Positions 16,129-38,108 of a stretch of DNA of 64,000 nucleotides are shown piece by piece (positions within the stretch are counted from its first letter, which is position 1; each line of letters begins with the position of its first letter). Source of the stretch: Actinomycetota bacterium (GTDB taxonomy: Bacteria; Actinomycetota; Geothermincolia; Geothermincolales; RBG-13-55-18); assembly GCA_014360655.1 (NCBI GenBank), contig JACIXC010000003.1, positions 1 to 64,000 of the forward strand, written 5' to 3'. The notes below the pieces were generated by a model. That model did no database searches. It was not told the DNA's origin and worked only from the letters and a program-made list of their open reading frames with translations. A program made the translations under genes and the position numbers.

Positions 16129-17307
16129 TCATTCCCTCACCGTCGCCGTTCCTTCCGCGGCCGCGGGCTCCGCGGCGGCGGGAGCCTCTTCCGGCCGGAA
16201 CCAGTGCTGCGTACGCAGGCATATCTTGACCAGCAGGAGCATCACCGGCACCTCGATGAGCACCCCCACCACCGTTGCCAGCGCCGCTCCGGAGGCAATG
16301 CCGTAGAGCACGGTGGCGGTGGCGATGGCCACCTCGAAGTGGTTGGAGGCGCCGATCATGGCCGAGGGCGCCGCGTCCCGGTAGTCCAACTTTATGAGCT
16401 TGGCCAGCCCGTAGCCGATCCAGAAGATGAGGTTGGTCTGGATGAAGAGGGGAACGGCGATGTAGACGATGGACATGGGCTGGTCGATGATGAGCTGCCC
16501 CTTGAGGCTGAAGAGGATGACCAGGGTCACCAGGAGGGCGATGATGGTGACGGGGGTCAGGTAGTGGATGAACCTTTCCTGGAACCACTCCATGCCCTTG
16601 CGCTTCAATATCCATTTTCTGGAATAATACCCCGCTACCAGCGGCAGGGCCACGTAGATGCCCACGGAGAGCACGATGGTCAGCCAGGGCACGGGCATGC
16701 TGTTCACTCCCAGCAACCAGCCTCCCAGCGGCGCGTAGAGCACCAGCATGGTGAGGGAGTTGATGGCCACCATCACCAGGGTGTGCCCGTCGTTCCCTTT
16801 CGCCAGGTAGGACCAGACCAGCACCATGGCCGTGCAGGGAGCGATGCCCAGCAGGATACAGCCGGAGATATAGGAGCGGTAGAGTTCCGGGCGCAGGACT
16901 CCGTCCACCATGATGCCGCCGGTGGTGGGCACGTAGTGGGTGCCGAGGTCGGCTCCCGGGATCCACCTCTTGAACACGAAGGCCAGGAAGAAGGTGGCGA
17001 TAGCCACCATGGTGAAGGGCTTGATGCACCAGTTGACGAAAAGGGTGAGGAGCACCGGCTTGGGGGTCTTGCCCGCCTTTATGACCTCGGCGAAATCGAT
17101 CTTCACCATGATGGGGTACATCATGAAGAAGAGGCAGACGGCGATGGGGATGGAGACCTGCGCCACCGACACCTTGTCCAGCGCCTCACCCATACCGGGG
17201 AAGGCCTTGCCCAGGAGTATGCCCGCGCCTATGCAGGCGATGACCCATATGGTGAGATACTTCTCGAAGAAACCCAGCCGCCTGGCTACCCTCGGCTGCT
17301 CCTCCAA
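16129..17307 (-). CDS. acr3: ACR3-family arsenite efflux permease
   Basis: A 392-residue, roughly ten-TM exporter that expels As(III). Family hallmarks are [24 protein letters not shown] (with the essential Cys), [11 protein letters not shown], and the [18 protein letters not shown] motif. I place the start at the TTG at 17307 because AAAGGAGGA lies about 8 bases upstream; residues further upstream in the open frame are not conserved-looking. The gene follows arsR, as is typical. The C-terminal tail is Ala/Glu-rich. Confidence 0.93.
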
Positions 17308-17510
17308 CCTCGCTCCTCCTTTGCTGCTTTTCTCTTGCGGGCTGCGCGGCAAGCTCCCCAGTGCGGCTCGCTGCGCCCGCCCTCCCGAGCAAGTTCTACC
17401 ATGCTCGCTTGCGGTCCGTGCCTTTCCTCCCAGCCATCACGTACTTCTACGCGTCCCCGACGCTCGCCGGCATCGCGTTTACGCCTCCGGGAGCAGGGAA
17501 CAGGGGCGTC

Positions 17511-17879
17511 TCATGTCCGGGCCGGCCTTTTCTCGCATTCCTCCCTGCGGGGATACGGCCGGTCTATCTTGTGGGTTCCGAGTATTTCCAGAAAAAGCCG
17601 GTTCAGCCTCTCCACCGCCTCCGGCACCAGCGAGTGATAACACCAGGTGCCGCTCTTGCGTGCCCTCACCAGGCCCACCTCCCGCAGCACGGAAAGGTGG
17701 TGCGAGGCCAGCGGCTGCGATATGCCCAGTTGCTCCTCGATATCGCAGACGCACTTCTCGCCCTGGAAGAGAAGGCACATTATTTTCAAGCGGTTCACAT
17801 CGCTGATGATCTTCAGCATGTCATGAAGCTCGTTGATCTCGCTCTTGCTCACGCACTCCGCCAGCTTCTTCGCGCTCAT
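17511..17879 (-). CDS. arsR: ArsR-family As(III)-responsive repressor
   Basis: A 122-residue winged-helix repressor. The metalloid site C43-V-C45 lies at the start of the recognition helix region (EKCVCDIEEQLGISQPLASHHLSVLREVGLV), matching the ELCVC-type As(III) site. ATG at 17879 has GGAGG upstream. It heads the operon leading to acr3 and the thiol proteins. A palindrome lies in its own promoter (17902-17923), so autorepression released by arsenite is likely. A third possible ligand, C80, is present (GTWCYHSL). Confidence 0.93.
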   Translation of the reverse strand: MSAKKLAECVSKSEINELHDMLKIISDVNRLKIMCLLFQGEKCVCDIEEQLGISQPLASHHLSVLREVGLVRARKSGTWCYHSLVPEAVERLNRLFLEILGTHKIDRPYPRREECEKRPART

Positions 17880-17995: not shown

Positions 17996-18583
17996 TCAGC
18001 CCTCGACCTCGCCGAGGGCTTCGTCCGGCGCCTCGTAGCCCTGCTTGAAAAAAACCCTCCCGATGACCTCGCTCAGGGCCACTACCACCACCAGGGTGGC
18101 CAGGTATCGCACCAGGGTGAACTTCCAGCCCAGGAATTGGAACTCCATCAACTCCGCCGGGAGTTTTATGCACGCCCAGGCGGAGAGGAAGATGATGATA
18201 TTGGCGACCTTGGCGCCCTTTTTCAGCAATACCGCCGCCAGCGGGAACGCCACGTAGAGGGGCCCCATGGGAATGCTTCCCAGGATGAACGAGAGGACGA
18301 CTCCTTTGACCCCGGATTCCTCGCCGAGAAACCTGACGATGAACTCCCTTTCCACCCACACGCTAACCAAGCCCATGATGATGAACACCGCGGGAAGGAT
18401 CATGGCCATCTCCTTGAAGTATTCCCAGGCCACATGGCGCGCCGTACCGCCTTTCTCGGGGAACACGACGACCAGGACGATGAAGACGGGAATAAGAAGG
18501 AAGAGGATGGCGTAATCCCACCGTATTCTCTCCCTTATGCTTCTCTTCCTGCCGTTTGCCACGGCATCGGCCTTTTCGTTCAC
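17996..18583 (-). CDS. Split permease, second half (ArsP-like)
   Basis: A 195-residue membrane protein with four to five TM segments. The core motif is SFILGSIPMGPLYVAFPLAAVLLKKGAKVANIIIFLSAWACIKLPAELMEFQFLG. The gene starts at a GTG (18583) that overlaps the stop of the preceding half-gene by four bases (GTGA), so both are made together. Both halves share a G..xP...AFPLA..LL..GA signature, as though each were one repeat of an ArsP_1/DUF318-type permease. A paralogous pair is at 36531-37638. The substrate is unknown; a metalloid or an organoarsenical is inferred from context. Confidence 0.8.
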   Translation of the reverse strand: MNEKADAVANGRKRSIRERIRWDYAILFLLIPVFIVLVVVFPEKGGTARHVAWEYFKEMAMILPAVFIIMGLVSVWVEREFIVRFLGEESGVKGVVLSFILGSIPMGPLYVAFPLAAVLLKKGAKVANIIIFLSAWACIKLPAELMEFQFLGWKFTLVRYLATLVVVVALSEVIGRVFFKQGYEAPDEALGEVEG

Positions 18584-19065
18584 CTTATGATCACCCCTAT
18601 CACCACGGCGATGGCCACGGCGGCGAGGAAGCTCAAGGCGTTCCTGGCGACGGCGAACCTCTTTCCCAGTTCCTTGATCTCCAGGGGCAGGAACACGAAG
18701 CCGACCATGGTCAGGGTGGTGATGAACGCCGCCGTGGCCATGATCCCGGCCCCCATGTCCAGCATGGACTTGGCCAGGGGGAAGGCGATGATGACCGGGA
18801 TGAAGAGCACCGCACCCAACAGGGAAGCGATGGCCACCCCCAGGGCACCGCTGTTCTTGCCGATCACCTGGGCGATCCACTTGGCGGGAACGAAACCGAT
18901 CATCAGGCCCACCACCAGGATGATGGCCAGGATGCCGGGGAGCAGCCGCATGAAGCCCTTGTAGGCGACGCGCAACGCGGCCAGCGTTTTCTTCCGGTCC
19001 TTGATCACGCTCAGGAGCAGCAGTACGCCCGTCAGGACGAGGATGACGAGGGTTGTGAGATCCAC
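18580..19065 (-). CDS. Split permease, first half (ArsP-like)
   Basis: A 161-residue membrane protein of four to five TM segments. Motifs: LLPGILAIILVVGLMIGFVPAKWIAQVIGKNSG and GAVLFIPVIIAFPLAKSMLDMGAGIMATAAFITTLTMVGFVFLPLEIKELGKR. It is read first and is coupled to the second half through a GTGA overlap. It ends cleanly, with no sign of a recent frameshift: the paralogous pair elsewhere in the window has the same break point, so the split is ancestral. Confidence 0.8.
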   Translation of the reverse strand: MDLTTLVILVLTGVLLLLSVIKDRKKTLAALRVAYKGFMRLLPGILAIILVVGLMIGFVPAKWIAQVIGKNSGALGVAIASLLGAVLFIPVIIAFPLAKSMLDMGAGIMATAAFITTLTMVGFVFLPLEIKELGKRFAVARNALSFLAAVAIAVVIGVIIR

Positions 19066-19106: not shown

Positions 19107-19430
19107 TCACAGCGCGTCTTCCAGGAAGTTGACGCAGGCGTCCTCGGGCGGGAAGATGCTCGCGGCCACTTCCACCGCCTTGAGCGTCGCCGCCGGCACG
19201 ATGCAGGAGTTGCGGCAGCAGTGCTCGGATGCGGCGCGGTACACCGCCGTGTCCCGCATGGGGAGGGTCATCTCGCTCCCCGCGTTGACTTCCTTGAGCT
19301 CCTCCGCCATCTCCGCGATGTGCTCGCAGGAGGTCTCGAAGGAAAGGGACACGGTGGTGAGGGTGTTCTTCCGCGCCGTGATCACCGTCTCCTTGCCGCA
19401 CTGCCCTCCTTTTACGAATACGATGGCCAT
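19107..19430 (-). CDS. Small cysteine-rich protein (DUF6951-like)
   Basis: A 107-residue soluble protein beginning AIVFVKGGQCGKETVITA. Cysteines at about positions 11, 35, 70, 71, 75 and 98 (SFETSCEHIAEMAEEL, EHCCRNSCIVPAATLKAVEVA) could bind a metal or metalloid. The opening and the later Cys block resemble the DUF6951 family, from memory rather than a search. It lies between the split-permease pair and the DGC protein, 41 bases from the former. Confidence 0.6.
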   Translation of the reverse strand: MAIVFVKGGQCGKETVITARKNTLTTVSLSFETSCEHIAEMAEELKEVNAGSEMTLPMRDTAVYRAASEHCCRNSCIVPAATLKAVEVAASIFPPEDACVNFLEDAL

Positions 19431-19457: not shown

Positions 19458-19844
19458 CTATTCATGCCTCGCCGCCAGGGCCTCCTCGATGCGCCGCTTG
19501 ACGTCCGCCTTGATCCTCTCCTTCTCCGCCTCATCGTAATCGAGCACCGGTGCCTTCTTAACCCCGTAGTCCTCCACCATCTCCACCCGGATGTCCGGCT
19601 TGCGGCCGGAGTGCTCCTCCACGATCTTGGAGCAGCACATCACCGGGCAACCCTCGATGATCACGAAGAGCTCCGCCCCCGCGATCTTGTTCAAGCCGGT
19701 GTCCTTGTCGATGGCCACCGCGGGCAGGCATACCAGGTGGTAGTCCTCGTTCTCCTTCACCAGCTCCGTGGCCACCGCCCCCGCCAGCTGCCCGGTATTG
19801 GCGGCCCCGTAGCAGGTGGCTATGACTACCCTGAACTCGGCCAT
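19458..19844 (-). CDS. DGC-domain putative zinc-binding protein
   Basis: A 128-residue protein. C10 in VIATCYGAANTGQLAGAVATELV and the later FVIIEGCPVMCCSKIVEEHSG match the DGC family, whose name comes from a conserved Asp-Gly-Cys (here EGC). Four cysteines near C73-C79 could form a metal site. The start at 19844 follows AAAGGAGGAG. DGC proteins are commonly found beside ArsP-type permeases and ArsR regulators, as here. The biochemical function is unknown. Confidence 0.75.
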   Translation of the reverse strand: MAEFRVVIATCYGAANTGQLAGAVATELVKENEDYHLVCLPAVAIDKDTGLNKIAGAELFVIIEGCPVMCCSKIVEEHSGRKPDIRVEMVEDYGVKKAPVLDYDEAEKERIKADVKRRIEEALAARHE

Positions 19845-19877
19845 CGCGAATCTCCTCCTTTCAGGTCCCAAACGGCC

Positions 19878-20957
19878 TTACTTCGCGAACATCCCGAAGA
19901 TGTACCCCGTGCCCATGGCGAAGAGGCACACCAGCAGGATATACGTCCCGGCCTTCTTGAATCCCATGATGCGGATGAGCACGATCATGCTGGGCAGGGA
20001 GAGCGCGGGCCCCGCCAGCATCAGGGCCAGGGCCGGCCCCTTGCCCATTCCCAGCTCCAGGAGTCCCTTGACGATGGGCACCTCGGTGAGGGTGGCGAAG
20101 TACATCAGGGCCCCGGATACCGAGGCGATGGCGTTGCCTCCGATGGTGTTTCCGCCCACGTAGCGGGCGATGACGTCGGAGGGGATGAGCTCCTTGACCA
20201 CGCCCACCAGGAAGACCCCGACGAGCAGCACGGGAAGGATCAACTTCACCATGCGCCAGGTCTCAAGGAACCAGGTCTTTACCTCCTCGCGCGTGAACCA
20301 GCGCTTCACCAGGTAGATGAGCAGGGCCACCAGGAGCACCTCGCCCGCGTACTTGACGATGGTGGGCATCTTCGCCGTGCCGTAGACCAGGATGGCGATG
20401 AGGACACCGAAATAGATGAGGTTCTGGTAGCCCGGCCTTACCCGGCTCCCGTCGTCGTAGGCGAAGGCCTCCGCGTCCTCCGCCGCCCGCACGCGCCTCT
20501 CCTCCTCCTTGTGGAAGACGGCGGCCATGATGAGCCCGATGAAGAAGGCGAAGCCCACCGCCCCGATGATGCGCGCCACCCCCAGGTCGTACCCCAGGAG
20601 GTTCATGGAATAGGTCATGGCCAGGATGTTGATGGCCGGCGAGGAGTAGAGGAAGGCGACGGCCGGCCCCAGGCCCGCCCCCTTCTCGCGTATGCCCGTG
20701 AACAGTGGGAGCACGGTGCAGGAGCACACGGCCAGGATGGCCCCGGAGACCGAGGCCACGGAGTAGGAAAGGAACTTGTTCGTCCTGGGGCCGAAGTAAC
20801 GCATGACCGCGGCGGTATTCAGGAAGGCGATGATGGCCCCTGCGATGAAGAAAGCCGGGATAAGGCAGAAGAGGGTGTGCTCGGCCACGTACTCGACGAG
20901 CGTCCGCAGGCCCTCCATCATCAAGCCGCCGAAGGTTATCGCTGCCAATTCCACCAC
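19878..20957 (-). CDS. ArsP_1/DUF318-family permease
   Basis: A 359-residue permease with about eight to ten TM segments in two halves. The first half has the Cys-rich motif GAILAVCSCTVLPLFTGIREKGAGLGPAVAFLYSSPAINILA. The second has VSGALMYFATLTEVPIVKGLLELGMGKGPALALMLAGPALSLPSM. ArsP members export trivalent organoarsenicals; others in the family have unknown substrates. The start is a GTG (20957, with a second GTG at 20954) and no strong ribosome-binding site, so the N-terminus could be shorter (Met-Met at residue 14). Confidence 0.85.
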   Translation of the reverse strand: MVELAAITFGGLMMEGLRTLVEYVAEHTLFCLIPAFFIAGAIIAFLNTAAVMRYFGPRTNKFLSYSVASVSGAILAVCSCTVLPLFTGIREKGAGLGPAVAFLYSSPAINILAMTYSMNLLGYDLGVARIIGAVGFAFFIGLIMAAVFHKEEERRVRAAEDAEAFAYDDGSRVRPGYQNLIYFGVLIAILVYGTAKMPTIVKYAGEVLLVALLIYLVKRWFTREEVKTWFLETWRMVKLILPVLLVGVFLVGVVKELIPSDVIARYVGGNTIGGNAIASVSGALMYFATLTEVPIVKGLLELGMGKGPALALMLAGPALSLPSMIVLIRIMGFKKAGTYILLVCLFAMGTGYIFGMFAK

Positions 20958-37643: not shown

Positions 37644-38078
37644 TCACCCTCCCTTCCTTCTTCCCTTGCGCCCACCGCCAGCACTATCGCAGAGAGAGAT
37701 GAAGCCGCTGAGCATGTCCACTCTCTCCCTGAGCGCGTCCAGCCAGGCTTCCAGGCGCTCCTCGCCCCGCGGCGTGATGGAATAGATGCGCCTGGCGGGG
37801 CCCTCCTCCCCCTCCTCCCACCGCGAGCGAAGCAGTTGCGACCTCTCCATCTCCCGCAGCGCGCGGTAAACGGCCGCCGCGTCCGGAGAAGGTCCGGGAA
37901 AGGGTATGCGGCCTATCTCCTCGCTGAGCCGGTACCCGTAGCTCTCCCGCCCCTTGATGAGATAGAGCAGGCGCGGTTCCACGAAACCCTTCCGGGGTCC
38001 CTCGCGCACGAACCGCTCGTGGTCGCGGAGATCTGCCCCGCCTTGCCGTCCCGCGACAGGGACATCCTTTTCCTTCAT
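37644..38078 (-). CDS. PadR-family transcriptional regulator
   Basis: A 144-residue PadR-type winged helix. Core: PRLLYLIKGRESYGYRLSEEIGRIPFPGPSPDAAAVYRALREMERSQLLRSRWEEGEEGPARRIYSITPRGEERLEAWLDALRERVDML, with the family's YxITxxGxxxL signature. A helical dimer tail follows. The stop overlaps the possible GTG of the permease gene. It is the first gene of the operon and has a palindrome in its promoter (38111-38130), so autoregulation is likely. Inducer unknown. Confidence 0.88.
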   Translation of the reverse strand: MKEKDVPVAGRQGGADLRDHERFVREGPRKGFVEPRLLYLIKGRESYGYRLSEEIGRIPFPGPSPDAAAVYRALREMERSQLLRSRWEEGEEGPARRIYSITPRGEERLEAWLDALRERVDMLSGFISLCDSAGGGRKGRRKGG

Positions 38079-38108
38079 GGCTCTCTCCCGCATAAACCGA
38101 ATGAACTT

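Follow-up and report, generated by a model that had tools for sequence, protein, structure and literature searches.

The window, a 64,000-nucleotide stretch of an Actinomycetota genome (contig JACIXC010000003.1), contains two pairs of adjacent half-size permease genes, designated here A and B. The products of A and B are probably (with a probability of roughly 0.7) two subunits of one antiparallel heterodimeric secondary transporter with an elevator-like fold. The half size of the genes, their kept pairing and order, their own duplication, the opposite charge bias of the two proteins and a confident joint fold of an artificially fused chain were computed directly. The pair is best read as an antiparallel-pair kind of transporter, new within the ArsP_1 family, and is most likely a living example of a two-fold symmetric pump built from half-size parts. 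Existing public annotation calls the genes 'permease' and nothing more; under the reading preferred here, such adjacent 'permease' genes would be annotated as intact two-gene transporters and not as a broken arsenic pump. No paper on half-size ArsP pairs was found in the literature search, outside which most subscription journals lay.

Half-size permease genes in the window

The window contains pair 1 (A1 and B1) and pair 2 (A2 and B2), as well as one fused full-length ArsP gene (Table 1). In pair 1, the stop of A1 and the start of B1 share four nucleotides, GTGA; this overlap and the sizes of 161 and 195 residues, both noted in the preliminary description, agree with the gene coordinates. That description had overlapping half-genes twice in the window, which holds for pair 1 but not for pair 2, where a 25-nt gap separates A2 and B2. 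A second paralogous pair does exist, but A2 reaches to 37647, and the boundary first proposed, 37638, corresponds to an ATG in the same frame three codons into the gene. Each of the four proteins carries one P...AFPLA..LL..GA repeat, as first described.

Table 1. Half-size permease genes, their motifs and selected neighbouring genes in the window
Feature	Coordinates	Strand	Remarks
A1, half-size permease, 161 aa, N-terminus predicted outside	18580..19065	(-)	ArsP_1 E 1e-5, 25.3 bits; charge bias -8
B1, half-size permease, 195 aa, N-terminus predicted inside	17996..18583	(-)	ArsP_1 E 1.4e-10; charge bias +7
A2, A1 paralogue, 164 aa	37153..37647	(-)	60% identity to A1; charge bias -7
B2, B1 paralogue, 198 aa	36531..37127	(-)	ArsP_1 E 1.7e-13; 52% identity to B1; charge bias +4
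A1 motif PVIIAFPLAKSMLDMGA, residues 90-106	18748..18798	(-)	predicted hairpin tip and second arm, aligned to the A2 model
B1 motif PLYVAFPLAAVLLKKGA, residues 108-124	18212..18262	(-)	predicted hairpin tip and second arm, aligned to the B2 model
PadR-family regulator	37644..38093	(-)	directly upstream of A2
Fused full-length ArsP, 359 aa	19878..20957	(-)	E 7e-79; in the pair 1 gene cluster; comparison protein, outside the pair
ArsR-family regulator (HTH_5)	17511..17879	(-)	downstream of B1

The identities in Table 1 are Blast values; A1 and B1 share 29% identity in the same comparison (E about 1e-13). The A and B sequences, with about 30% identity, are themselves paralogous. All four half-size proteins match Pfam family ArsP_1 (PF03773), with E-values of 1e-5 to 2e-13. 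The gathering cut-off of this family is 32.3 bits; in a protein scan, B1 (41.3 bits) and B2 (50.9 bits) exceeded it and A1 and A2 (25 bits) fell under it, while in a genome scan A1 (33.4 bits) and A2 (34.6 bits) were also over the cut-off, so the membership of A is borderline. For A as for B, the matched part of the ArsP_1 model is its first repeat, at positions of about 15–144. The genome from which the window is taken has five ArsP_1 matches, namely the two pairs and the one fused ArsP. The dN/dS ratio, calculated against two relatives, is about 0.12–0.13 for A1 and for B1, indicating that both genes are under purifying selection.

Conservation of the A–B pair

The A–B pair is real and widespread. 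Thirty-eight distinct A–B loci with adjacent genes were collected, including those of the window, and the pair is present in 18/18 genomes of the order to which the window belongs. The two genes lie side by side, A first, in the archaeon Thermococcus peptonophilus, in Peptoclostridium, Acetoanaerobium and Niallia, in many Actinomycetota and in Marinimicrobia; with this range of one archaeon and several bacterial phyla, the pair is apparently ancient. Most of the 38 pairs share a four-nucleotide overlap of the ATGA, GTGA or TTGA type, and the remainder mostly have short gaps. In the order-wide search and at the 38 loci, every strong A has an adjoining B in the same order, and A without B was not found in the loci examined apart from contig ends or duplicate loci. 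Using the A profile at an E-value of 1e-6, matches were obtained in 35 of 198 genomes of the phylum, some of them solely through fused ArsP.

A fused pair in close relatives, which the preliminary description considered a sign of a recent split, was looked for, and no A–B fusion was seen in the 18 genomes of the order, the 198 genomes of the phylum, 199 genomes of a second phylum or plasmids. The branching of the A subtree closely mirrors that of the B subtree, the pattern that co-inherited partners should show. The second pair of one relative (G203:C1:53180-54152) has an intact A and two stops within the B match, the probable cause being degeneration of this copy or an error in the sequence. 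No viral relatives were confirmed in viral contigs, and a phage search found only a YraQ-family protein.

Charge bias and membrane orientation

The K+R bias was calculated as the number of lysine and arginine residues in the N-terminus and loops L2 and L3 minus that in loops L1 and L4, for 19 A, 19 B and 14 single half-size proteins (S, described below). The mean bias under this loop scheme, in which loop boundaries were placed by eye on the alignment and the choice of same-side loops followed the charge pattern itself, is -7.2 for A, +6.1 for B and +2.8 for S. Individual sequences range from -11 to -2 in A and from +3 to +8 in B, with no overlap. The positive residues of A are concentrated in L1 (mean 6.3) and L4 (4.0), the N-terminus, L2 and L3 containing few; in B, the N-terminus (6.0), L2 (3.3) and L3 (2.7) stand against L1 (2.9) and L4 (1.8). 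With the flanks of the first transmembrane segment alone (N-terminus versus L1), the contrast between A and B holds in 17/19 A and 18/19 B. L2 and L3 behave as same-side loops, which would fit a re-entrant hairpin between them.

The opposite bias of A and B predicts opposite orientations in the membrane. Antiparallel paired proteins have reported biases of +7, +6, -6 and -7, and dual-topology single proteins of -2 to +1 (PMC3962082); the comparison of A, B and S with these values is qualitative, since the loop definitions differ.

Predicted fold and proposed mechanism

For structure prediction, A2 and B2 were joined by a linker into one artificial chain, a fusion not proposed as biology, in which the two frames were connected by treating TGAG as a single four-letter code word. 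The chain was modelled with AlphaFold from a 42-row alignment, the rows being chosen by checking their placement and those from plasmid records left out. The model has a mean pLDDT of 86.5 and a pTM of 0.80, a value that the linker itself can raise; linker residues 172–196 are disordered. The order of helices is identical in the two halves (6–25, 27–61, 64–70, 77–90/94–106, 111–123/126–136 and 138–167 in A2; 200–218, 220–254, 257–264, 269–281/287–299, 304–316/319–329 and 331–370 in B2), and each half combines scaffold helices with one hairpin and one broken helix. The fused ArsP of the window, folded independently, gave a pTM of 0.86; its C half has the same helix order as the A2 and B2 halves, and its N half is modelled without the first helix that A and B carry. 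The CSC motif of this ArsP (residues 78–80) is at the hairpin tip of the model.

A Foldseek search of the PDB with the A2–B2 model returned the TRAP transporter IseQM (probability 1.00, TM-score 0.53), YdaH (0.94, 0.51), Pho90 (0.89, 0.32) and NaDC1 (0.84, 0.37); with the ArsP model, it returned ArsB (1.00, 0.38), TRAP SiaQM (1.00, 0.46) and NaS1 (1.00, 0.53). For both models, no match had an E-value below 0.001, the best TM-scores were near 0.5 and the others 0.3–0.4. The high-probability matches of both models are members of the Ion Transporter superfamily, a consistent lead, though not proof, towards a fold of this kind for A–B and ArsP. Hairpins and discontinuous helices are described for the repeats of ArsB and of DASS proteins (PMC13381914), and the secondary structures predicted in the two models agree with such an arrangement. 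Sequence searches of the PDB found no solved structure with sequence similarity, and a fold search of BFVD with the fusion model found nothing. The predicted likeness of the window ArsP (19878-20957) to ArsB, TRAP and NaS1 conflicts with TCDB work that assigns ArsP, with 4+4 repeats, to the TOG superfamily (PMC7176098).

In the proposed mechanism, each chain would cross the membrane about four times, by the first helix, the long second helix, the broken helix and the last helix, and would contain one re-entrant hairpin bearing the P...AFPLA motif. The N-terminus of A would be outside and that of B inside, with the two chains antiparallel and paired face to face. Together they would form a two-fold pseudo-symmetric core, in which two hairpins and two broken helices meet in the membrane, arranged as in the single-chain elevators of the Ion Transporter superfamily (DASS, TRAP, AbgT, ArsB). 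Transport may be ion-coupled and is probably in the direction of efflux, and the hairpin domain would move in an elevator-like way to give alternating access. With an even number of crossings, the C-terminus of A and the N-terminus of B would lie on opposite sides of the membrane, which may explain the absence of fusions.

Alternatively, A and B might be separate homo-oligomers with different or redundant roles, linked solely by co-transcription. The occurrence of S, with neither A nor B, in about ten Marinimicrobia genomes implies that a half-size protein can stand alone. This explanation is nevertheless unlikely: A lacks B solely at contig ends or duplicate loci, the genes have a four-nucleotide overlap and mirrored trees, and the proteins have complementary, strongly opposite charge biases and a confident joint fold.

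Genomic context and possible substrates

The neighbours of pair 1 include genes for ArsR, an SBF-family (ACR3-like) permease, the fused ArsP, a DGC-domain protein, DUF6951 and a thioredoxin-like protein. The DUF6951 gene (19107-19430) and the DGC-domain gene (19458-19871) lie between the fused ArsP and pair 1. In about ten other pairs, including that of Niallia (Bacillota), a PadR-like gene is found upstream of A; the Pfam PadR assignment was confirmed at loci L009, L016 and L020. At L021 (6024-6339), L041, L044, L045 and L047 (several Marinimicrobia), and also at L031, the gene immediately after B encodes a small cupin-like protein, and in some Actinomycetota B is followed by an ABC ATPase gene (L014, identified by Pfam; L017 and L018, by sequence). 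Since the neighbouring genes differ between lineages, the substrates of the A–B pairs are likely to vary as well.

The cupin-like protein and the ABC ATPase could also mean that A and B are no transporter by themselves and serve as the membrane part of a larger assembly. Such neighbours, however, vary by lineage, the pairs in the window have neither, and PadR- or ArsR-type regulators are the commoner link, making this explanation distinctly improbable beside a two-subunit secondary transporter.

The C(S/T)C motif, reported as conserved in every ArsP surveyed (PMC4435449), was found in 46 of 56 N-halves of fused ArsP and in none of the 19 A, 19 B or 14 S proteins. Lacking this motif, A and B are unlikely to bind trivalent arsenic through thiols in the way proposed for ArsP, and an ArsP-type arsenical chemistry is likewise unlikely for the A–B pair. 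The missing cysteine motif is also a warning against labelling A and B genes as arsenic pumps.

Relationship to fused ArsP proteins

To represent ArsP in profiles and trees, a set of fused proteins was gathered and aligned, and each was divided into an N half and a C half. In profile–profile comparisons, A matched B with an E-value of 7.6e-20, B matched S with 2e-24 and the N halves matched the C halves with 3.4e-23; the values for A or B against the N or C halves of ArsP were 4e-10 to 1e-14. In a tree of 46 halves, support values were obtained for A (100/98), B (99/98), S (99/98), A+B+S (99/96) and A+B (94/84), and topology tests rejected the grouping of A with the N-halves (p 0.005) and with the C-halves (p 0.023). 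Without four divergent ArsPs, the support for A+B+S was 100/99 and the same groupings were again rejected (p 0.017 and p 0.022, respectively). The N halves as one clade were not rejected (p 0.15–0.23), and the tests did not discriminate between S as sister to A+B and S closer to one of the two (p 0.14–0.18).

A, B and S are thus recovered as one clade (bootstrap 99–100), separate from both halves of fused ArsP, and this clade, together with the rejected groupings, indicates that the A–B pair arose through its own duplication. The preliminary description had viewed the pair as a permease split in two, with halves expected to align to the N- and C-terminal repeats, respectively; in fact, the N-half profile gives higher scores than the C-half profile for single sequences of A as well as of B, and the two match the same Pfam region. 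Its suggestion that the pair possibly resembles an ancestor of fused ArsP is not supported either; as the root of the tree is not fixed, the trees give neither the half-size lineage nor fused ArsP precedence. What survives is a probable working heteromer, indirectly favoured by the constant adjacency and order, selection on both genes, the opposite bias and the joint fold. The trees and profiles argue strongly against fission of an ArsP gene as the origin of the pair.

The corresponding functional scenario, in which the two products of a broken, formerly fused ArsP-type gene still cooperate, could draw on the A–B order of half-size genes near a fused ArsP in the window and on the shared helix architecture of A, B and the ArsP halves, but is very improbable given the placement of A with neither set of halves, the single A+B+S clade with its common preference for the N profile, the first helix that the N-half of the window ArsP lacks, and a range of the pair that takes in several bacterial phyla as well as an archaeon.

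Comparison with other transporters

As with ArsP_1 organo-arsenical exporters (PF03773, TCDB 2.A.119), to which they are homologous, A and B have the helix order of the window ArsP halves, and pair 1 is located within a metalloid-type gene cluster. Unlike ArsP, which is one chain with two repeats, A and B are two half-size chains; they do not have the C(S/T)C motif and belong to their own clade with its own duplication. A half-size topology ('4') is mentioned just in a table note of the TCDB study (PMC7176098).

The repeat predicted for A and B, with its scaffold helices, hairpin, discontinuous helix and final helix, would resemble that of the elevators of the Ion Transporter superfamily: ArsB, DASS (NaS1, NaDC1 and INDY), TRAP (SiaQM and IseQM) and AbgT (YdaH). 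Unlike A and B, these elevators have both inverted repeats in a single chain and possess additional scaffold helices, and PDB searches found no sequence similarity between them and A or B.

The half-size pair SpmA/SpmB of spore maturation (Gate domain) may be another system that A–B resembles; a Pfam match to that type is absent.

As in the SMR-type pair YdgE/YdgF, DUF606 and UPF0016, A and B are half-size paralogues encoded next to each other, and their charge biases differ in sign; unlike these, they come from an unrelated family and have larger halves with a predicted re-entrant hairpin and broken helix. UPF0016 occurs in single, paired and fused forms (PMC4067407), and the same three forms coexist among the relatives of A and B.

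Single half-size relatives

A single half-size gene, S, encoding a protein of about 173–185 aa that also matches ArsP_1, was found in about ten Marinimicrobia genomes and in G059, a genome from the phylum of the window. In genomes with S only, neither A nor B was detected elsewhere at the search threshold, an absence that is provisional, since genome completeness is not stated for this group, and no recognisable partner adjoins S. A few genomes carry A/B and S together. The S bias is +1 to +5, or -3 to +1 when the N-terminus is left out. With this weak bias and with no partner found in the genome, the S proteins of loci L052–L067 (Marinimicrobia and G059) are candidates for dual-topology homodimers.

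Inverted-repeat transporters are thought to derive from half-size proteins inserting both ways into the membrane, followed by duplication and fusion. To our knowledge, living single, paired and fused forms have been described for few small families (e.g. SMR, DUF606 and UPF0016). A tentative suggestion is that S dual-topology homodimers, obligate antiparallel A/B and, in a sister lineage, fused inverted-repeat ArsP form another such living series. If true, half-size members with a hairpin fold would allow a direct test of duplication and fusion in an elevator-type carrier, and this ArsP-like series would offer a predicted hairpin-elevator fold, widespread pairs and feasible cloning.

At one S locus, L058, S is immediately preceded by an SBF-family permease gene (L058:1358-2491) that is similar to the SBF gene of the window (16129-17352).
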